DNA of 64,000 bases, taken from NCBI GenBank assembly GCA_035530615.1, contig DATKUL010000001.1, positions 248,001 to 312,000 on the forward strand, given 5' to 3'. This document shows, piece after piece, positions 52,160 to 62,890 of the stretch. Position 1 is the first letter of the stretch; each line of letters opens with the position of its first letter. A program made the translations under genes and the position numbers. Origin of the DNA: Candidatus Paceibacterota bacterium (GTDB lineage: Bacteria; Actinomycetota; Actinomycetes; Nanopelagicales; Nanopelagicaceae). The notes below the pieces were generated by a model. That model worked only from the letters and a program-made list of their open reading frames with translations. It was not told the DNA's origin and did no database searches.

Positions 52160-52192
52160 AGAAAGTGTTAAGAATTTCCTAAACTGCACGAA

Positions 52193-53833
52193 CTACGCAC
52201 TGGGTTTGATTTCAAGGCCTGATTGGTAGGCACGATGTATGTGAAAATACATTGCCTTGGCGAACGTAGTGCTTCGACTTATAAAGTGACGATCCTCAAA
52301 GTAATAGGTAGGAAGTGCTCGCTCTTTGGTTGCGCATCCAAGTAGGCCTGTCGAAAAAAGTATCTCCAACAACGGTTGGTAAATAGTGAAATCGTAGACT
52401 CCGGGTGGAGAATTCCACATTTCACTGCTAACGGCGGTCAGCCATCCAACGCCATCGATCTTGGGATCACTCACAAGAAGTAAAATCTCGTCGAGTCGAG
52501 GGGTCAACTCTTCCCGAGACATCTTCATTGGGCTCCCTCTAAATTTCTCGACCGCCTTGTCGATGCTCGGGTAAGTGCCCTTCCATTCGTCTCGCAGCGA
52601 AAGGAGCATTTTGCTCGAGTAAATCGGTTCGGCCGACTGGATTTCTTCCCAACCGAGACGATTCTTATCCGCCCCAGCTATAAAACACTCGTTAGCAAAC
52701 GAGATCGCATCTCGTGGTCTCATTAGGGTGCGATCCAAAATATAGTCGAGAGCATTTCCGCGGGTCTTATTGGGATTTGGAAGCAGGTCGTCCAATGTTT
52801 TCGCCACTATTCCCGACTTTGCCGCGGCAACTGCAACTCTCTCATCCAGCATCTCCTCGAGATCCGCGGGCGACCACTTTAAGTCCAGGACAAGTCCTCG
52901 GAATTTCTCTTCTTGGCCGCCGCTCTTTCGCCCAAAATCTAACTCCTGAAAGATATTCGATCTAAGCGCCACCAGAATCTTTAGATTGCCCACTCGCTTC
53001 AAATCTAGAACTGTCCGGAAGAGGCATCGAATCAAGTCATTTGCTATTCCTTCATCGACCCACTCCCTATCTAAATCATCAATTACCACGTAAGTAAAAT
53101 TACGGTCGTCATCCAATATGTATTCGTCAAGCACATCCAACATCGCATTTAGCCGAGTTAGTTGGGTGTCATTCACAATCCTTTGATACCTATCGGCTTC
53201 TTCACGCCGCGTCTCTACGTAGTTTTCTACTTCTGTTCCGCCATCTGCGCCTACGCCGACGCCCGCGGTCATCAGATGGACGCTTGCCGCCTCGTCCACC
53301 TTTTGTCGAAAAGACTCCGTAATACCGCGGATTCGGACGTCCGTATCTTCCCAAAAGCGATCTTCGAACTGTTCAAGATAATCTAGCGCCTGCTTCTTTG
53401 TATGGTCAGAAGTAATCTTTTCACGCAGAATCGTAAAAAAATTTTGCTTCGCGATGGCAGAATTTACATGGTATCGGTGCTTTATTATTTCAACCAACAA
53501 TACGTGCTTCCAAAGCATGGACCAGAAAAGGTCAAGGTTAACTCCAAGTCCATCTAACTTCTGAATTAGTTGCAGATTTGTGATGTATGGCAATGCGAGA
53601 TTCTCTGGATTGATTCTAATAACGTGTTCTGGATGCTCGTCTTCGAGTCTTTGTAAAGAGGCCGATTTTCCGGAGCCAGTCCTACCAATGATGAAACACC
53701 GACGGTCGGACTTTGAAGAGATCACGTTATAGTCGCTTGAATTGTAAAATGCCTCCTCCAGCAAATTATCGGTTTCGGCAGCAATGCCTCCTAGGGTAAA
53801 TACACTCTTAAATTTCGGAGATTTGGTCGCCAT
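52193..53833 (-). CDS. P-loop ATPase, Sll1717-like (KAP/STAND-type) protein
   Basis: 546 aa from the ATG at 53833 (a start 33 bp further upstream is possible). Walker A in CFIIGRTGSGKSASLQRLED, Walker B in FTYVVIDDLDREWVDEGIAN, sensor-like LKILVALRSNIFQELDFG, and MRPRDAISFANECF in the helical part. There is no TM helix. These fit the P-loop ATPase Sll1717 family; its role is not established, and it turns up near phage-defence genes (my recollection). It sits between ppc and the trpB 3'-end fragment, with the start of the restriction-modification genes 0.6 kb away, convergent with ppc. Confidence 0.75.
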   Translation of the reverse strand: MATKSPKFKSVFTLGGIAAETDNLLEEAFYNSSDYNVISSKSDRRCFIIGRTGSGKSASLQRLEDEHPEHVIRINPENLALPYITNLQLIQKLDGLGVNLDLFWSMLWKHVLLVEIIKHRYHVNSAIAKQNFFTILREKITSDHTKKQALDYLEQFEDRFWEDTDVRIRGITESFRQKVDEAASVHLMTAGVGVGADGGTEVENYVETRREEADRYQRIVNDTQLTRLNAMLDVLDEYILDDDRNFTYVVIDDLDREWVDEGIANDLIRCLFRTVLDLKRVGNLKILVALRSNIFQELDFGRKSGGQEEKFRGLVLDLKWSPADLEEMLDERVAVAAAKSGIVAKTLDDLLPNPNKTRGNALDYILDRTLMRPRDAISFANECFIAGADKNRLGWEEIQSAEPIYSSKMLLSLRDEWKGTYPSIDKAVEKFRGSPMKMSREELTPRLDEILLLVSDPKIDGVGWLTAVSSEMWNSPPGVYDFTIYQPLLEILFSTGLLGCATKERALPTYYFEDRHFISRSTTFAKAMYFHIHRAYQSGLEIKPSA

Positions 53834-53982
53834 CGGTAGCCCCCGCAATCCAAAGCATTGAATCAATGTTGAACGCTAGCGTAGGTTCTCCGCACCATGG
53901 TCTTCCAGCCCACCAGGACGCTGGCGCGTCGTAATATTATGAGCCTCTCCCAGAACGAACTAGAGGCCATTGTCCCTTCGAA

Positions 53983-54091
53983 TCAGATCCTTGGCACTGT
54001 CTCCAAGGTCGCTTGGATCGAAGCATCAAAAAACTCACGATCAATCATCGTGCCGCCGAGGAATGCGTCGTAAGCAACGAGGTTGAAGTGG
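53983..54091 (-). pseudogene. Duplicated, diverged 3' end of the TrpB2 gene (left copy of direct repeat)
   Basis: The minus strand encodes NLVAYDAFLGGTMIDREFFD followed by ASIQATLETVPRI and a stop, matching the C-terminal end of the intact TrpB2 at 58653-60017. The DNA aligns without gaps over 109 bp at about 81% identity (about 20 differences counted by eye), and both copies point the same way. Upstream of the match the frame is unrelated. It is therefore a fragment, not a gene, and marks the left edge of a 4.67-kb segment. The rest of 53867-54420 shows no gene. Confidence 0.85.
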
Positions 54092-54392
54092 TCACCGCTA
54101 TAGACTGGGTAAAAAGGCCTTGCCCTGCGCCAGTAACGCTGCTTCCATGGCGTCACGGATGCTATCGGCGAGTCGTCCATATCTTTACTCAGAGCCTTTC
54201 CATAAATTTCAAGCCTATCGGTTAAAATGCACTCGCGGCTCACAAGAAAGTACCGCCAACTTGGCAGGATGTACATTCCCACTATTAAATTATCGGCATC
54301 GCCGCCAGGTTCACCCTGTGTATTGCTTAGGAGGCATAGCGGCAGGTTTCACTCTACTTTCGCATTCATTTTTTGCATAATATCACTACGAT

Positions 54393-54407
54393 TTCGTTAG
54401 CAACGAA
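54393..54407. promoter_or_regulatory. Inverted repeat before the candidate endonuclease gene
   Basis: TTCGTT, AGC, AACGAA: perfect 6-bp arms, ending 13 bp before the start codon, just after an AT-rich TGCATAATAT stretch that could be the -10 region. A plausible control site for restriction endonuclease expression. Confidence 0.4.
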
Positions 54408-54420
54408 CTAGAAAGGCGCC

Positions 54421-55149
54421 ATGGAACTCGACAAAATCTTGGAGAGATTTGCCGAAGGCTTGGTCAAAGTTGACCAACATACTCAGCATGAATCTTCAAA
54501 TCAACGAACGGGCGAGGTCTATCTCCCAGGCGTGAAGACGATGCGCGAGCCCAAATTTGTCGAAGAATTGTTGAATTGGTGGAGGGGTGACCATTCATCA
54601 GATTTCAATCCATCAAACGCAAGCCAACGTGAGGTTCCATACCCCAATATTCCTAGAGCAAGTTGCGACTTAGTTCTATCCACAGATGGATCACCTCTTG
54701 AAACACCAGAATGGGCAATCGAAATCAAGCATATTGCTCTTGTTGGGAATAATGGAAAAAACAATGACTACGGTGTTCAAAAAATTCTTTCTCCATATCT
54801 CAAGGATCGGTCTTTGATTCACGACATAAAAAGAATGCGATCTGCCCCAATGGGCCGAAGACAGGCAGTTGTCGGATATTGCTTTGAATATAATTTTGAT
54901 ACTTGTATCGAAGCGCTGCTACTGCATCCTACTCACTCAGAATATGTGCTGAATGTTCGCGAGGTATGCAGAAAAAATGACCCCAGCAAGGGTGAACTAG
55001 GTATTACTCCAATGATTGAATTTGCCAACCAGATTTTCACTTCCAGAAACTTGGTGAAAGAAGTAATTACCAAGGATTTCGAAGGAGCGTGGAGACACCC
55101 TTGCGGAGGCAAGGGAAAGATATTTGGTTGGGAAGTCTTACCGACCTAA
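54421..55149 (+). CDS. Candidate type II restriction endonuclease
   Basis: 242 aa with AGAAAGG before the ATG. A PD-(D/E)XK-type core is suggested by CDLVLSTDGSPLE ... EWAIEIKHIALVGNNGKNND: an Asp in the first strand, then E-x-K in the second, followed by a helix with QKILSPYLKDRSLIHDIKRM. RRQAVVGYCFEYNFDT forms a later strand. It is convergent with the 5-methylcytosine methyltransferase gene, 7 bp apart, the classic arrangement for a cognate pair. Recognition site unknown. Alternative: a non-restriction nuclease-fold protein. Confidence 0.65.
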   Translation: MELDKILERFAEGLVKVDQHTQHESSNQRTGEVYLPGVKTMREPKFVEELLNWWRGDHSSDFNPSNASQREVPYPNIPRASCDLVLSTDGSPLETPEWAIEIKHIALVGNNGKNNDYGVQKILSPYLKDRSLIHDIKRMRSAPMGRRQAVVGYCFEYNFDTCIEALLLHPTHSEYVLNVREVCRKNDPSKGELGITPMIEFANQIFTSRNLVKEVITKDFEGAWRHPCGGKGKIFGWEVLPT

Positions 55150-55156
55150 TTCAGAT

Positions 55157-56557
55157 TTACTTCACTAATTTGAGTGGAATATCAAAATCCAAATGGTACT
55201 TCTTGGATTCGACAGACAACTCATGAAACCTGGCGTGGTTGGCTAGCACTAGATCAGGACTCGGTGGGGCACCTAAAATCGATCTAACTAATACATGATG
55301 ATCTCCAAGTAAATCTAAATCACGCAGAACTTGTGCTCTAATTACGTTATAAACAGCACCAACATTTACACCATTGCCAAGTTGCTTAAAGGTAAGGGCG
55401 TCGGGTTGATCGACAAAGTCGAACCAATCAGGAAGGCCCTGCAACCTGGCACCTTCGCGCGTGCTAATTCGGCGCCTTTGCTGTCCGACAATGGAGGTCT
55501 GTGTAATTGCAACCAGGGCAGGTAAATATGTGGCACGTTTCGCACGAATTCCCGAAGGGCGAAAGTGCATCACCGTTTCCCATAGATTCGTGGCATTTTG
55601 TGCCTGCCATTCAAATTTTCTACGGCTTGGAGGGAAATCTGCAAGGTTGTTCCAACGCTTGAGCCACTTATCAAGAACTGTTTTGTGCTCCGTATAGAAC
55701 TGAGCGTTTTTGGTTAAGAAATTGGATTTCCAATCAGGCGTGCCTGCCGGGATGTAAAGATCCTCAATATGCACCCAATCATCAGCCCAGATCGGGAACC
55801 CAGGTAGAGATGCTCCACTTAAGCGCTCACGCATAATCTCAACAAATTCGTTCCATGCTTCAATCCAGATCACTTCCGCATCACCAAGTGCGACCGCATC
55901 CTTCGCCTTCGCAGTTTTGGGTTTTTCCAACGGTAAATCAACTTTAAGATTCCAATTCTGAGGATCCCAATTCAAGGTTACCGAATCTAAATTAGGAATA
56001 TCAGTGTGCAAGGCATGCTCCCTCCTCCCCTTTGGAATTTTGGTAGCCGCGATGAAAACACGATCCCTTACTTGAGGACGTCCGCCGAATTCAGGACGGA
56101 TTAGATGGGGTGACACAACCATCGGCGCATCGCTAACTCGATAGCCCAATTGGCGGAGAGTAGAAGTAATCACATCCCATTCATGAATATGCCTTGGCCC
56201 TGCAATGTTCCTAACATTTTCAAGGAGCACGAGAGTTGGACGATGCACCTCAACAATTTTCGCAATGTTCCAAAATAGTGTGCCACGCGCTTCTTCCATA
56301 CCATGCTGTTTTCCCGACTTGCTGAATGGCTGACAAGGAAATCCACCAACCAAAACATCATGTGCCGGGACTTCCATAGTGTCATCGTTCGCAGCCAGAG
56401 TGATATCTCCATCTGGCTTCAATCCCCAATTGCGCTGGTAAATCCTTGCTGCATCTTTATCTATCTCGGAGGCATAAACACAGTTTCCGCCCATCGCTCC
56501 CAATGCTGCGTGGAACCCTCCAATCCCTGCAAAGAGATCAACAAAGGTGAAGGCCAT
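55157..56557 (-). CDS. DNA (cytosine-5-)-methyltransferase
   Basis: 466 aa. The conserved C5-MTase motifs are in order: I FVDLFAGIGGFHAAL, IV GGFPCQPFSKSGKQHG with the catalytic Cys, VI LLENVRNIAG, VIII RPQVRDRVFIAA, IX REGARLQGLPDWF, X QLGNGVNVGAVYNVI. The region between VIII and IX (about residues 175-360) is long and contains the target-recognition part ending with SGIRAKRATYLPALVAITQT. It protects host DNA from the convergent candidate endonuclease. The C-terminal 45 residues after motif X are extra. Confidence 0.93.
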   Translation of the reverse strand: MAFTFVDLFAGIGGFHAALGAMGGNCVYASEIDKDAARIYQRNWGLKPDGDITLAANDDTMEVPAHDVLVGGFPCQPFSKSGKQHGMEEARGTLFWNIAKIVEVHRPTLVLLENVRNIAGPRHIHEWDVITSTLRQLGYRVSDAPMVVSPHLIRPEFGGRPQVRDRVFIAATKIPKGRREHALHTDIPNLDSVTLNWDPQNWNLKVDLPLEKPKTAKAKDAVALGDAEVIWIEAWNEFVEIMRERLSGASLPGFPIWADDWVHIEDLYIPAGTPDWKSNFLTKNAQFYTEHKTVLDKWLKRWNNLADFPPSRRKFEWQAQNATNLWETVMHFRPSGIRAKRATYLPALVAITQTSIVGQQRRRISTREGARLQGLPDWFDFVDQPDALTFKQLGNGVNVGAVYNVIRAQVLRDLDLLGDHHVLVRSILGAPPSPDLVLANHARFHELSVESKKYHLDFDIPLKLVK

Positions 56558-56832
56558 AGGAATACTTTAGGCGATGAGGCTGACAAAAAGAATTTTCAGG
56601 TTCGGTTATCATGGAAAGTTGAAGATCTAGCCAGTGCGAGTTAAATATATAGTGAAGCAAGCCCGAGGTCAGGGGCGATATTGCAAGAGTTTCTGGTCAG
56701 GGATGGGCAGGCACTTATTTCGATGGTACCGTCATGGCGGCTCCGTCAAAAATGACCATTCTGCATGTTCAATAACATTGGACCACTAAACACTAAATAG
56801 CATCTAGTACTTTCGTAGCCATTTGTCTAAGG

Positions 56833-57831
56833 TTGCCTAATAAACAAGGGTTGGCACTACGAGATGAGGTGGATACAGTGCCGGGTGAGGCGAAAGATAA
56901 GTCAAATGTTAACCGCGACGCCAGCGAAATCGGGAAACCCTGGTTTAGCGGTCGCACCGTCGAAGTGCTAATTTATAAAATCAACCGACGCCCGATGACG
57001 GGCGATCCCTCTCTATTCAAGGCTCCAGAGGATCTCCTTGCACACATAAAAAGTGTGCTTGAAAAAGGCGAGCCAGCCACCAGCGGCCGGAACCCAAAAC
57101 GAACTTGGCAAATAGGAAATCTTGAATATGACCACAAGAGGCGCGAGTTCACTGGACACTTGGGTTGGGCGCGAACCGCCGAAGCACTATCTCAATCTTG
57201 GGATCCCATAAATCAAATGTGGATTGACAAGGTCGTTGAGAGAGAAGATTCAGCAGTTGCGCCACTTGTATTTATTGAAAAAGGACGTCTTCTTGGCATC
57301 TTAAAACACCCTACGTTCACAACGGAAATAGTTCTAGATAAGGTACTCACTGAGATATTTAACCGAGGGGAACGAAACTCGGGTTCTTACGCTACAGCGT
57401 GGGATATCGAACCAGTGGGAGACGAGCACGAATTCCTTACGTGGATGAGTGACCTCGACCAACTCACAAGCCTGACTTTAACTTTTCAACGCCCAAATCC
57501 CGATGGAGAGGAGTTGTTCAATGATCTATTCGCGCGACTAGATGCGCTTAGGGCAAAATCGATCACAGAGAAGTACACCGCACTGGACCGAGAAGAAGGA
57601 CTTGATAGACAGGCAATCTCGAATGACAAAACCAGCCAAGGTTTCATACGGGCCGCCATGATCGCATTCGGAAGAGTCTTGGCCAGAGGAAATAAAGATG
57701 GTGCTAGAGTAAAATATGATCAGCGTGAAAGCGTCTTGCGTGCGCCGATCACGGATGTCGGAGATGACTGGAATACTGCAACCACGAACGTGCTAAGGGC
57801 AGTCAGGAACATTGGCAAGGAGCAGGATTAG
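56833..57831 (+). CDS. Uncharacterised soluble protein, first gene of a two-gene module
   Basis: 332 aa with a TTG start in this reading; later GTG codons (about 56869 or 56878) are equally possible since no clear ribosome-binding site is seen. No TM helix, signal peptide or known motif. The body has strand-rich parts (RTVEVLIYKINRRPMTGDPS, WQIGNLEYDHKRREFTGHLG, SLTLTFQRPNPDGEELFNDL) and a charged helical C-terminus. An acidic/aromatic mix without cysteines. It is followed 15 bp later by a 4-TM membrane protein gene and lies inside the trpB-flanked segment next to restriction-modification genes. No function is assigned. Confidence 0.7.
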   Translation: MPNKQGLALRDEVDTVPGEAKDKSNVNRDASEIGKPWFSGRTVEVLIYKINRRPMTGDPSLFKAPEDLLAHIKSVLEKGEPATSGRNPKRTWQIGNLEYDHKRREFTGHLGWARTAEALSQSWDPINQMWIDKVVEREDSAVAPLVFIEKGRLLGILKHPTFTTEIVLDKVLTEIFNRGERNSGSYATAWDIEPVGDEHEFLTWMSDLDQLTSLTLTFQRPNPDGEELFNDLFARLDALRAKSITEKYTALDREEGLDRQAISNDKTSQGFIRAAMIAFGRVLARGNKDGARVKYDQRESVLRAPITDVGDDWNTATTNVLRAVRNIGKEQD

Positions 57832-57846
57832 AGGAGCGCGATAGAA

Positions 57847-58404
57847 ATGGGAAAACTTAGAAGGAAAGTTGGGTTCTGGGGTTCCGTTGGGCGCCTTAAG
57901 TTATCTGAACTATTCTCCTTCGAATTTCTTTCAAGCGCTCTGCTTGCAACTATCGCGACCGTATTTCTGGTGCGCCTTGTCAATGTCAGCGAACGAGTGA
58001 GCATTTCCGGCGATTTTCTCTCAATTTCTGCTGCCCTTCTCGGTGTCGTCGCGGCTTCCATGGCCCTTGTAGTCGCACTCATCTCTGAGTCGTACATGAG
58101 GCTCCTAGCAGCAAGCAACTCAGGAGTCCTAGGATTTTTGAGTCCTTTCGTAATTGCAATTGGCATACAGTTGACGACCGTTATTGGAGCAGTCGGATAC
58201 CGGGCATTCGCAGAACTGGTCCCGCCGAAATTGGAACACTGGCTGTTCGGAATACTTTGCGCACTTTTTCTTGATTCTTGTTTCGAAGTCGTCACTTTAG
58301 CCAGGAGTATTCTGATGCATGCATTGCTTCGTGCCGGACAATTGGAAGTCACAGATTTAGAGGTTCAACGAATAAAAAAGCATCGAGATTCCCTGAATCA
58401 ATAA
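57847..58404 (+). CDS. Uncharacterised 4-TM membrane protein, second gene of the module
   Basis: 185 aa. Hydrophobic helices: FEFLSSALLATIATVFLVRL, SISAALLGVVAASMALVVAL, FVIAIGIQLTTVIGAVGY and WLFGILCALFLDSCFEVVTL, then a cytosolic tail with RIKKHRDSLNQ. The N-terminus is basic (GKLRRKV). No known domain. Co-directional with, and 15 bp from, the preceding soluble protein gene, the usual arrangement for a sensor plus membrane effector, but that is conjecture. It is the last gene before the intact trpB copy. Confidence 0.72.
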   Translation: MGKLRRKVGFWGSVGRLKLSELFSFEFLSSALLATIATVFLVRLVNVSERVSISGDFLSISAALLGVVAASMALVVALISESYMRLLAASNSGVLGFLSPFVIAIGIQLTTVIGAVGYRAFAELVPPKLEHWLFGILCALFLDSCFEVVTLARSILMHALLRAGQLEVTDLEVQRIKKHRDSLNQ

Positions 58405-58559
58405 GCCAATTGACTACGGCAATAATCCAAATTGCCTAGAGAGAGACATTAGAATTACACGCTATCAAGACGCATCAGTACCGCTTTTGCTGCTGGAAAG
58501 TATTATTGACATTGACCAAAATAGATTAGGTATCCTTATGCGCGCTTTATCCAAGTTCC

Positions 58560-58573
58560 TTGTTGCGCAACAA
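58560..58573. promoter_or_regulatory. 14-bp perfect palindrome at the right edge of the island
   Basis: TTGTTGCGCAACAA, followed by an imperfect AAAAGTGC / ACTTTT hairpin. It lies in the 248-bp gap 58405-58652 between the membrane protein gene and trpB, about 80 bp from the repeat boundary. It could be a terminator-associated structure, an operator, or the scar of an element end. No gene is seen in the gap. Confidence 0.4.
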
Positions 58574-58652
58574 AAGTGCAAAAACTTTTTGTTGTGATGC
58601 CACATCTGTCGGGATTACCAACAATTCGAATAGAGTGATTGAGTCCCATCCT

Positions 58653-58761
58653 CTAAATCCTTGGCACCGTCTCCAAAGCCGCTTGAATCGATGCCTCTGA
58701 TAGTTCGTGATCAATCATCGTTCCACCGAGGAATGCGTCGTAAGCGGCCAAGTCGAAGTGG
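58653..58761 (-). repeat. Right copy of the 109-bp trpB direct repeat
   Basis: The last 109 bp of the intact TrpB2 gene, stop codon included, match 53983-54091 without gaps. The two copies bracket the restriction-modification and two-gene modules in direct orientation, 4,670 bp apart. Confidence 0.85.
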
Positions 58762-60292: not shown

Positions 60293-60478
60293 AAATTCTC
60301 TCCGCTCTAATCGGTTAGGTCTCTTCCTGGTTCAGTGTAGATCGACCAACTGACATCTGGGCAGGCTAGTAGCGGCCCTCAAATCTCCCGTCATCTGAAT
60401 AGGGGAGGTGGCTACGAGGCACCTACATGCGAGTATCTAGTGTTACCGTTCCATGAATCTGGGAAGAAGGCCGACAGT

Positions 60479-62890
60479 ATGCTCGCGTGGCTCAAGAAAC
60501 TCTTCTGGTCGAAAAAGAAGACTGTCGAGTATCAAGCGGTTCAACAAATGAGCGCTTATCAGGCTTCTCTCGAACGCATAGATATCGAGCGGTTCAGTGA
60601 ACTTGTCGACCTTCCCGACAACTTAGAACTATCGTTAACTCAAGTAATCGCCGCCACCTCCCACGCACAGGAAACTTTGGTTGTGGCGGGAGCGGGATCT
60701 GGGAAGACATCTCTCCTTGTCGGTAGAGCCAAGTATTTAGTCGAATCCGGAAGAGCCAAGGAGGACGAAATCCTGATGCTCGCTTACAACAAGGCTGCTG
60801 CTGAAGAGTTGTCAGTTAGAACGAAAATTTCGAACATAAATATTTCTGCGCAGACATTTCATGGTTTTGGTAATTCGATTATCAAGAGTGAGGGAGAGCG
60901 AACCGGCGTCGCCTTCGGTGAGAGTGGCGAAGTGGCCAGTTTCCTCCGAAAACAAATGGATGATGTCCTTGACGAGAGAGCTCTGCAATCTCTTTCAATG
61001 TACTTTTCTGAGGAACTAGTACCTAAAAGACCATATGAAGACTTTCATAACCTCTCTGAATACAGGGCATACGTTCAAGCCACCATTCTCAAATCCTTGA
61101 TGGACGAGAACGTGAAAAGCCATGGAGAATGGTTGATCGCCAACTTCCTTTTTACACACAATCTTGAGTACAAATACGAAGCCCTTTATGACGTTTCTGG
61201 TATCCCCAGAGAACGCCATACACCGGACTTCACCGTATATCTTCCAGATGAGAGAGAAATTTACATTGAATACTTCGGTATCGATCGACAAGGAAATACC
61301 GCTCCAGGAATTGGTCAAGACGCCTACCTAGCGGGAATAGAATGGAAAAAGAACGTTCACGCTAGCAACGAGACTCATTGCATTTCTCTGTACTATTACG
61401 ATCTGATGGAAGGGAATCTCCTAAGCAAATTGGAGAACGCTCTTCGTGCCATAAGCGCCATTCAAGATCAAAGAGATTACAAAGAAGTCCTTGCTCAAGC
61501 TAACAAACTTGGTTACTACTCGAGATTCCTGAAGATCTGCGACCAATTCTTGATTCATGTGCGTGCGCAGCGCCTTTCAGGTAGTGACCTGCTAGCCCTT
61601 TCAAAGAATGATAAAAGGAGTCTCGCCTTTCTCAATGTCTTTAACATCTTCTTGGCTAACTATGAAATGGAACTTAAAAAGAGGAATTTGCCAGATTTTT
61701 CAGAACTGATCAATGGCGCGGCAGATTCGATCCTGAGAGGCGAGTATGAGTTCAAATTTACTCATTTACTTGTTGATGAGTTTCAGGATATTTCGAAGGA
61801 CCGCTTCAGGCTGATAGAAGCCATGAAGAGCGCAAATCCGAATTTGGAGGTGATGTGCGTAGGGGATGACTGGCAATCGATCTATCGGTTCGGTGGCAGT
61901 GATATCTCCATTATGAGGGCTGCAAGCACACCAAAGTTGAATCGGAAACGTGTGGACCTCGCCGAGACCTATCGGCTCCCCCAAGAAATCGCAGACTTAT
62001 CGCGGAAATTTATCCTAAGGAATCCGCTGCAACTTCAAAAGACGGTGACATCAAAATCCGATTTGGACGCTCCCGGGAAAGTTGTCATCCATTGGGACAC
62101 CGAGCAAGCGGAAAATATGGAGAATCTGAAAAAAGTCATCTCGCGAATTGGTTCCGCATCAACCGATCCAACAAAAAGTCTTCGTGTGTTGGCCAGGTAC
62201 ACCGATAATCTGCCTGACAAACGCATTTTGGCTTCGTTATGGAAAGGACCGGCGGAAGTAAGCACGATCCACGCAGCCAAGGGATTGGAGGCGGATTATG
62301 TGATTGTCATGGATATGATCCAAGATTTTCGAGGTTTTCCGTCCACCATTGAAGATGATCCAGTGATGGCACTTGTAATGCCAGAGAAGGAGCCACATCA
62401 GTACGGGGAAGAGCGTCGACTTTTTTACGTCGCGCTTACCCGTGCACGTCGTGAATGCCACCTAATATCTCCAATTTCCTCTCCGTCATTATTCACGCTG
62501 GAACTACTAGATACGAAGCTCGGCGAACATGTCGGATTAACGGTCGATCAAAACCGCCCTTGCCCCGTCTGCAAGAGTGGGCAAATCTTGGTGAGTCCCA
62601 AGGGAAACGGCTCCTACTGCAGCAACATCCCACTTTGCGATTTCTTGCCACCGCGGTGTCCCACATGTTCGAAGCCCATGATCATTCATAAAAACGAATC
62701 TCTCCGCTTTATATGTCCCACTCATTCCAACATCAGACTCAAATCATGTCCAGTGTGCGAATGGGGAGTTCTGATTCCCAGAGCAGCTGTAAACAAAACT
62801 ACCGGAAAGGAATCTACATTTTTTTCCTGCCATACGTGGGCGAAGACTGGATGTACAGGCAAGCCCTCGCGAGTGAACGGTGGTAGATAG
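60479..62890 (+). CDS. Helicase IV-like SF1 DNA helicase with PD-(D/E)XK-like insert and zinc ribbons
   Basis: 803 aa from the ATG at 60479, which has AAGAAGG 8 bp upstream (an upstream GTG at 60440 lacks one). UvrD/Rep motifs: Walker A VVAGAGSGKTSLL, Walker B LLVDEFQDISKDRFR, DDWQSIYRFGGSD, AETYRLPQEIADLS, STIHAAKGLEADYVIVMDM and FYVALTRARRECHL. Between motifs Ia and II there is an insert with RHTPDFTVY ... IYIEYFGIDR, like the E. coli helicase IV (HelD) nuclease-fold insert. The C-terminal 110 residues carry several CxxC pairs (CPVCKSG, CPTCSKP, CPVCEWG), i.e. topoisomerase-type zinc ribbons. It likely acts in recombination or defence. Confidence 0.88.
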   Translation: MLAWLKKLFWSKKKTVEYQAVQQMSAYQASLERIDIERFSELVDLPDNLELSLTQVIAATSHAQETLVVAGAGSGKTSLLVGRAKYLVESGRAKEDEILMLAYNKAAAEELSVRTKISNINISAQTFHGFGNSIIKSEGERTGVAFGESGEVASFLRKQMDDVLDERALQSLSMYFSEELVPKRPYEDFHNLSEYRAYVQATILKSLMDENVKSHGEWLIANFLFTHNLEYKYEALYDVSGIPRERHTPDFTVYLPDEREIYIEYFGIDRQGNTAPGIGQDAYLAGIEWKKNVHASNETHCISLYYYDLMEGNLLSKLENALRAISAIQDQRDYKEVLAQANKLGYYSRFLKICDQFLIHVRAQRLSGSDLLALSKNDKRSLAFLNVFNIFLANYEMELKKRNLPDFSELINGAADSILRGEYEFKFTHLLVDEFQDISKDRFRLIEAMKSANPNLEVMCVGDDWQSIYRFGGSDISIMRAASTPKLNRKRVDLAETYRLPQEIADLSRKFILRNPLQLQKTVTSKSDLDAPGKVVIHWDTEQAENMENLKKVISRIGSASTDPTKSLRVLARYTDNLPDKRILASLWKGPAEVSTIHAAKGLEADYVIVMDMIQDFRGFPSTIEDDPVMALVMPEKEPHQYGEERRLFYVALTRARRECHLISPISSPSLFTLELLDTKLGEHVGLTVDQNRPCPVCKSGQILVSPKGNGSYCSNIPLCDFLPPRCPTCSKPMIIHKNESLRFICPTHSNIRLKSCPVCEWGVLIPRAAVNKTTGKESTFFSCHTWAKTGCTGKPSRVNGGR

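Follow-up and report, generated by a model that had tools for sequence, protein, structure and literature searches.

A convergent C5-cytosine methyltransferase and candidate endonuclease as a probable mobile restriction-modification pair

Two genes of the window, the 64,000-nucleotide stretch of DNA analysed here, meet tail to tail: one encodes a cytosine methyltransferase (MTase) and the other a 242-amino-acid protein that belongs to no family we could name. What do these two genes do together, and is the smaller one a nuclease? The original prediction had taken them for a candidate restriction endonuclease with its 5-methylcytosine MTase. We arrive at a similar reading, that the pair is a mobile two-gene type II restriction-modification system, and give it a probability of about 0.85 on the basis of gene structure, conservation, linkage, the MTase family, the conservation of catalytic residues and the differing genomic sites of the pair. 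The MTase would methylate C5 of cytosine within a short target read by its residues 223–330, and the 242-amino-acid protein, a putative PD-(D/E)XK nuclease that probably acts as a homodimer, would cut the same target when it is unmethylated, for example in incoming phage or plasmid DNA, giving the pair a role in defence. The pair is ordinary in kind and unfamiliar in one part, a candidate nuclease family without a name.

The two genes and their products

The candidate restriction endonuclease (family P1) is encoded at 54421–55149 on the forward strand and the 466-amino-acid C5-cytosine DNA MTase at 55157–56557 on the reverse strand, both from ATG starts; from stop to stop they are separated by the 7 bp at 55150–55156, and the open reading frame listing gives exactly the coordinates and the convergence that had been described. 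All key C5 motifs can be read directly in the MTase sequence, as had been claimed (DLFAGIGGF, GFPCQPFS, LLENVRNI, QVRDR, RLQGLPDWF and KQLGNGVNV), and the protein matches PF00145 (E = 2.7e-70), with M.HhaI as its best match among PDB sequences. Its long target-recognition region, also noted before, comprises residues 223–330 (55568–55891, reverse strand). As a mobile and closely linked combination of a single MTase with a small candidate endonuclease, the pair resembles type II restriction-modification systems with an M.HhaI-like C5-MTase, from which it differs in that its endonuclease has no match in four profile libraries.

We searched these libraries (Pfam, PADLOC, NCBIfam and PHROGs) with the 242-amino-acid protein and found no family at E ≤ 0.1, in agreement with the earlier statement that the endonuclease could not be named; a non-nuclease family, which the original prediction had listed as evidence against itself, was likewise not matched. 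Among PDB sequences no match was convincing, the best having an E value of 1.1 for the protein alone and 0.92 with a profile. Six full-length members of the family were collected, from the window, four further genomes (G297, G316, G346 and G449) and an Omnitrophota metagenome-assembled genome (L003), and the five relatives are 76, 68, 66, 66 and 45% identical to the window protein. All six aligned sequences keep D83, E101 and K103 (codons 54667–54669, 54721–54723 and 54727–54729, forward strand), and so the predicted D...ExK motif, a PD-(D/E)XK-like catalytic core of the form D83-x17-E101-x-K103 encoded by 54667–54729, is more than chance. Besides this triad, the stretches LPGVKT, VGNNGKNND and LSPYLKDRSLIHD are invariant in the six members. 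Across the family dN is 0.045–0.28 with saturated synonymous sites (for G346 against G449, dN is 0.045 and synonymous sites lie beyond the NG86 range), which indicates that the gene is under purifying selection.

Relatives of the 242-amino-acid protein were found in 2 of 21 genomes of the genus and 5 of 201 of the order; a six-sequence profile recovered the family in 5 of 394 genomes of the class, one of them with a partial match (G750), and a single-sequence search of a phylum sample returned only the window's own genome (1/296). The GTDB contig collection contained two loci; the coordinates of one, L002, identify it as contig C78 of G297. None was found in viral contigs, plasmids or phages. 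The partial match in G750 covers 96 residues (L081 6412–6699) in an open frame of 150 amino acids and is perhaps a remnant; no C5 MTase is present among the listed open reading frames of its 8.2-kb contig.

An AlphaFold2 model built from the six sequences reached a pLDDT of 80.7 and a pTM of 0.84. The PD-(D/E)XK core runs in the order helix-strand-strand-strand-helix-strand. The predicted helices and strands of the model follow this order (helix 45–57; strands 68–73, 81–86 and 98–104; helix 132–141; strand 147–155), with D83 placed in strand 81–86 and E101 and K103 in strand 98–104, and residues 110–116, within the conserved GNNGKNND loop, are modelled at a pLDDT below 50. Foldseek returned nothing at E ≤ 0.001 for this model; its top match, a weak one, was R.EcoRV (E = 0.07, probability 0.44). 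In a VIA alignment list, from which the absence of a family does not exclude that family, 7et0_C (the CinA–CinB complex) scored Z 6.0 and R.SwaI Z 5.6, with methyltransferases at about Z 5. R.EcoRV and R.SwaI are thus the highest-ranked restriction-enzyme folds, at scores too weak to assign membership. The modelled fold is consistent with a nuclease, though weakly, and conservation and linkage carry the case. The prediction of a candidate endonuclease with a 5-methylcytosine MTase is accordingly backed by the linkage of the two genes in all six loci and the invariant triad, along with the predicted fold.

The small inverted repeat that had been reported upstream of the endonuclease start does exist, at 54393–54407 (6-bp arms, 3-nt loop), and its standing as a feature did not hold up: a repeat of this kind occurs in 19% of shuffled 100-bp stretches and was seen at the same place in none of five relatives, and we judge it to be chance.

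Linkage and genomic setting of the pair

An MTase of one family lies beside the 242-amino-acid gene in all six full-length members. The two genes converge with a gap of 7 bp in the window and 3 bp in G297 and with an 8-bp overlap in G316; in G346 and G449 they also converge, with a 192-amino-acid gene in between, and in the Omnitrophota genome they are codirectional with a Vsr-like gene between them. We saw no further gene common to all six P1 loci, and no helicase or ATPase gene present in all six.

The genomic sites of the pair differ. It lies between ppc and trpB in the window and in other places in G297, G316, G346/G449 and the Omnitrophota genome. The pair of G297 adjoins what we take to be a pth-like gene, and in G316 the MTase is immediately preceded by a DndB/DpdB-like gene of 515 amino acids and an HNH gene (L060 2242–4344). 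In G346 and G449 the pair and the intervening 192-amino-acid gene are carried by an element with RepSA (PF20199, E = 2.1e-40) and FtsK/SpoIIIE genes (L061 1023–9612 and L062 1180–9241) and a further gene that resembles that of a serine recombinase. This element adjoins full copies of a tRNA_edit (YbaK-like) gene, and in G346 broken copies as well.

In the window, comparison of the ppc–trpB region with relatives showed that the pair sits in an insertion of 6.5 kb (52160–58652). The genes ppc and trpB are convergent neighbours in most of the genus relatives examined, and their matches end 7–26 bp apart in 10 of 17 relative stretches, all 10 from the genus; G301 has about 480 bp between the two matches and G312 about 2.7 kb, with other genes, and the other five stretches show trpB without ppc. 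The ppc–trpB gap is therefore an insertion hotspot, split both in the window and in G312 (L053), where two genes (L053 509–2236) appear to us to resemble Gp37/Gp68-type and TcmP-type proteins. Beside the pair lies an insertion scar, a relic of the 3' end of trpB at 53983–54091 on the reverse strand, of which 105 nt (53987–54091) are 81% identical to 58657–58761; it corresponds to the last 36 codons (TrpB residues 419–454, 78% identity) and divides the insertion into two parts. No recombinase gene was seen within the 6.5 kb.

Several other genes lie in or near this insertion. On the far side of the relic, 52193–53866 encodes a 557-amino-acid P-loop ATPase of the Sll1717 family (NF047389, E = 2.6e-62) that weakly resembles an NCBIfam anti-phage model. 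Genes for proteins of 332 and 185 amino acids stand in tandem beside the pair (56833–58404); the 332-amino-acid protein has weak similarity to DUF4747 (E = 0.015), and its gene was rejected as a core part of the system, being found in 1 of 201 order genomes. Just beyond trpB, 60440–62890 encodes an 816-amino-acid UvrD-family helicase resembling DNA helicase IV.

Other partners of the methyltransferase family and rival explanations

The MTase family extends beyond the 242-amino-acid protein. It occurs in 9 of 201 genomes of the order sample (E ≤ 1e-60), five with this protein and four without, and in those four other genes stand tail to tail with the MTase. A protein that we call P2 adjoins it in G484 (321 amino acids) and G363 (325 amino acids). 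The MTase of G441, 66% identical to that of the window, is tail to tail with P3 (258 amino acids) and has DruE2 and DruF2 on its other side, and in G342 the MTase lies beside Z1 and GHKL genes. Of the 394 genomes in the class sample, 26 contain the MTase (E ≤ 1e-80), at 28 places in all; three places found only in the order sample bring the total in actinomycetes to 31. Their partners, matched with profiles that were built from these same loci and so recover their members by construction, are P1 at five places, P2 at three, P3 at three, MTaX1 (PADLOC REase_II) at five, P5 at three, Z1 or GHKL at five, RE_SacI-like at two and DruK at one; at two (G586 and G062) HNH_2 is accompanied at most by Vsr or a weak DruK match, and at two (G594b and G526) no partner was recognised. 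HNH also accompanies other partners in G342, G816 and G723. Because many loci extend only 1.5 kb past the MTase, more distant partners will have been missed. Leaving Vsr aside, the MTase and a convergent partner are no more than 30 bp apart, or overlap, at 17 of the 31 places, the window included; in G062 and G723 the overlap amounts to 72–93 bp.

This gives eight or nine kinds of partner beside one MTase family, the count depending on whether the MTaX1-type (P4) and P5 proteins are distantly related, as weak BLAST matches through L084 and L035 may indicate. Comparison of P1, P2 and P3 by hhalign found no homology (probability 0.1–0.2%), with profiles of 3–6 sequences that leave room for distant kinship. 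P2 (about 320 amino acids) and P3 (about 255 amino acids) each conserve a D...SxK motif, which to us recalls the active sites of Cfr10I/NgoMIV-type enzymes; the structure prediction for P2 had a pLDDT of 42.9.

These neighbours bear on whether the window pair is complete in itself. The 242-amino-acid protein could be part of a larger defence system, Druantia-like or MORC/Z1-like, in which the MTase only marks self. The window MTase matches the DruM2 profile of PADLOC (PDLC00034, E = 7.5e-186), a likeness to Druantia type II, and relatives of it adjoin the Druantia genes of G441 or the Z1 and GHKL genes just described; the likeness to MORC/paraMORC (GHKL) restriction-modification systems with Z1 (PMC2292703) lies in related C5-MTases, often accompanied by Vsr-like genes. 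However, searches around the window pair gave no DruE, DruF, GHKL or Z1 gene: six window proteins scanned gave no DruE or DruF match, there being a single small nuclease candidate instead, and no GHKL or Z1 match lies within 50–60 kb or among the proteins searched against Pfam. As we also saw no additional gene shared by the six P1 loci, we consider membership in a larger system unlikely.

Two further explanations would deny the pair its activity in restriction. The MTase could be an epigenetic regulator whose partner, the 242-amino-acid protein, binds DNA and does not cut it; the fold matches are weak, and the nuclease role of the protein is after all a prediction. Yet the invariant D...ExK residues sit in the expected strands, the pair occupies different genomic sites, and related MTases are paired with annotated restriction families (REase_II, RE_SacI and HNH), which makes this account quite improbable. 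The decayed trpB tail next to the pair could instead mark a scarred island in which the two genes are a decayed, non-working remnant. Both frames are intact, however, the conserved residues are kept, and dN is low where synonymous sites are saturated, and we regard decay as the least probable of these accounts, with very little in its favour. A mobile type II restriction-modification system thus remains our preferred reading, and it adds a candidate restriction-endonuclease family, from small-genome actinobacteria, to those for which the four libraries hold profiles.

Partner exchange and the target sequence

The variety of partners raised the possibility that nucleases are exchanged beside the MTase. 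A maximum-likelihood MTase tree was built from 25 of 32 rows (the 31 places and the Omnitrophota locus), omitting the two rows without a recognised partner and G822, G586, G327, G628 and G536. Three pairs of sister MTases starred on this tree have unlike partners: G620 (P2) and G611 (SacI-like), G363 (P2) and G441 (P3), and G816 (P3) and G758 (MTaX1). The MTases of G816 and G758 have 75% identity as whole proteins and 71% within the target region, as do those of G316 (P1) and G484 (P2), a pair with support of 89/88 that is not starred; such similar MTases with unrelated partners in the same slot amount to a natural experiment. For the 21 rows whose kind of partner has at least two members, each given one label (G723 among them, although it carries both P3 and HNH), the partner label changes 11 times on the tree, against a minimum of 5 and an average of 13.3 for shuffled labels, and 44 of 1,000 shuffles gave 11 changes or fewer. 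Partner kind therefore keeps a little phylogenetic signal, far below that of strict co-inheritance, and this loose fit to the MTase tree suggests partner exchange. A single clade of the MTases paired with P1 was rejected (AU test, P = 3.65e-5), with the caveat that the Omnitrophota sequence has an unusual composition and a very long branch; the two genes may thus not have moved as one unit in every case.

It is an even call whether we see here a conserved 'address' module, the MTase, beside a slot that has repeatedly taken exchangeable, non-homologous cutters, often convergent and only a few bases away. The occupants of such a slot, with the same balance of doubt, would be P1, P2, P3, P5, MTaX1-type, SacI-like, HNH and DruK proteins and the Druantia and Z1 modules. 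The idea has a precedent in PMC2292703, where MORC operons are described as containing DNA methylases, Vsr and nucleases of the restriction fold, and where genes of an operon are said to be displaced by others of equivalent function. In a literature search that covered few of the subscription journals, neither this pair nor this slot was the subject of any title or abstract.

The target-recognition region of the window MTase is 56–81% identical to those of seven order relatives with P1, P2 or P3 as partner and only 39% identical to that of the Z1-linked order relative. MTases alike in this region probably share a target, and from this similarity different partners may use the same one. On this view, new effectors would be fitted in turn to a single methylation code as restriction evolves, with the protection of host DNA never lost; if the targets are shared, the slot would show nuclease change with the code kept, and one methylome would predict the targets of several unnamed nuclease families. 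The window pair is a good entry to this possible slot.

A lead to the target itself came from the SacI restriction-modification system, as two relatives of the MTase (G611 and G811) have RE_SacI-like partners (PF09566), whereas the 242-amino-acid protein has no RE_SacI match in Pfam at E ≤ 0.1. We counted GAGCTC sites in partial genomes (464 kb of the window genome, G000, and 400 kb of each of four others) and obtained observed-to-expected ratios of 1.05 (G000; 58 sites seen, 55.2 expected), 1.19 (G346) and 0.77 (G316) in carriers and of 1.08 (G334) and 0.53 (G349) in non-carriers. At a strong RE_SacI locus (G246, E = 9.4e-34), the MTase is 24% identical to that of the window, in the first catalytic part only. 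With no avoidance in the window genome and no close relationship to the G246 MTase, GAGCTC is not supported as the target.

Within the sampled stretches, no palindrome of 4–6 bases showed clear avoidance confined to carriers; CCTAGG had the lowest ratio, from 22–34 sites per sample. AGCT is under-represented in the window genome (0.62) and hardly depleted in the other genomes sampled (0.93–1.05). It is also depleted, at 0.75, in same-genus stretches without the 242-amino-acid gene (176 kb pooled; L114–L133), and is thus uninformative about the system.

MTases of the same family are also encoded on viral contigs (L104–L108), where they are 52–57% identical and have no recognised adjacent partner; a possible role of these partnerless enzymes is the protection of phage DNA.
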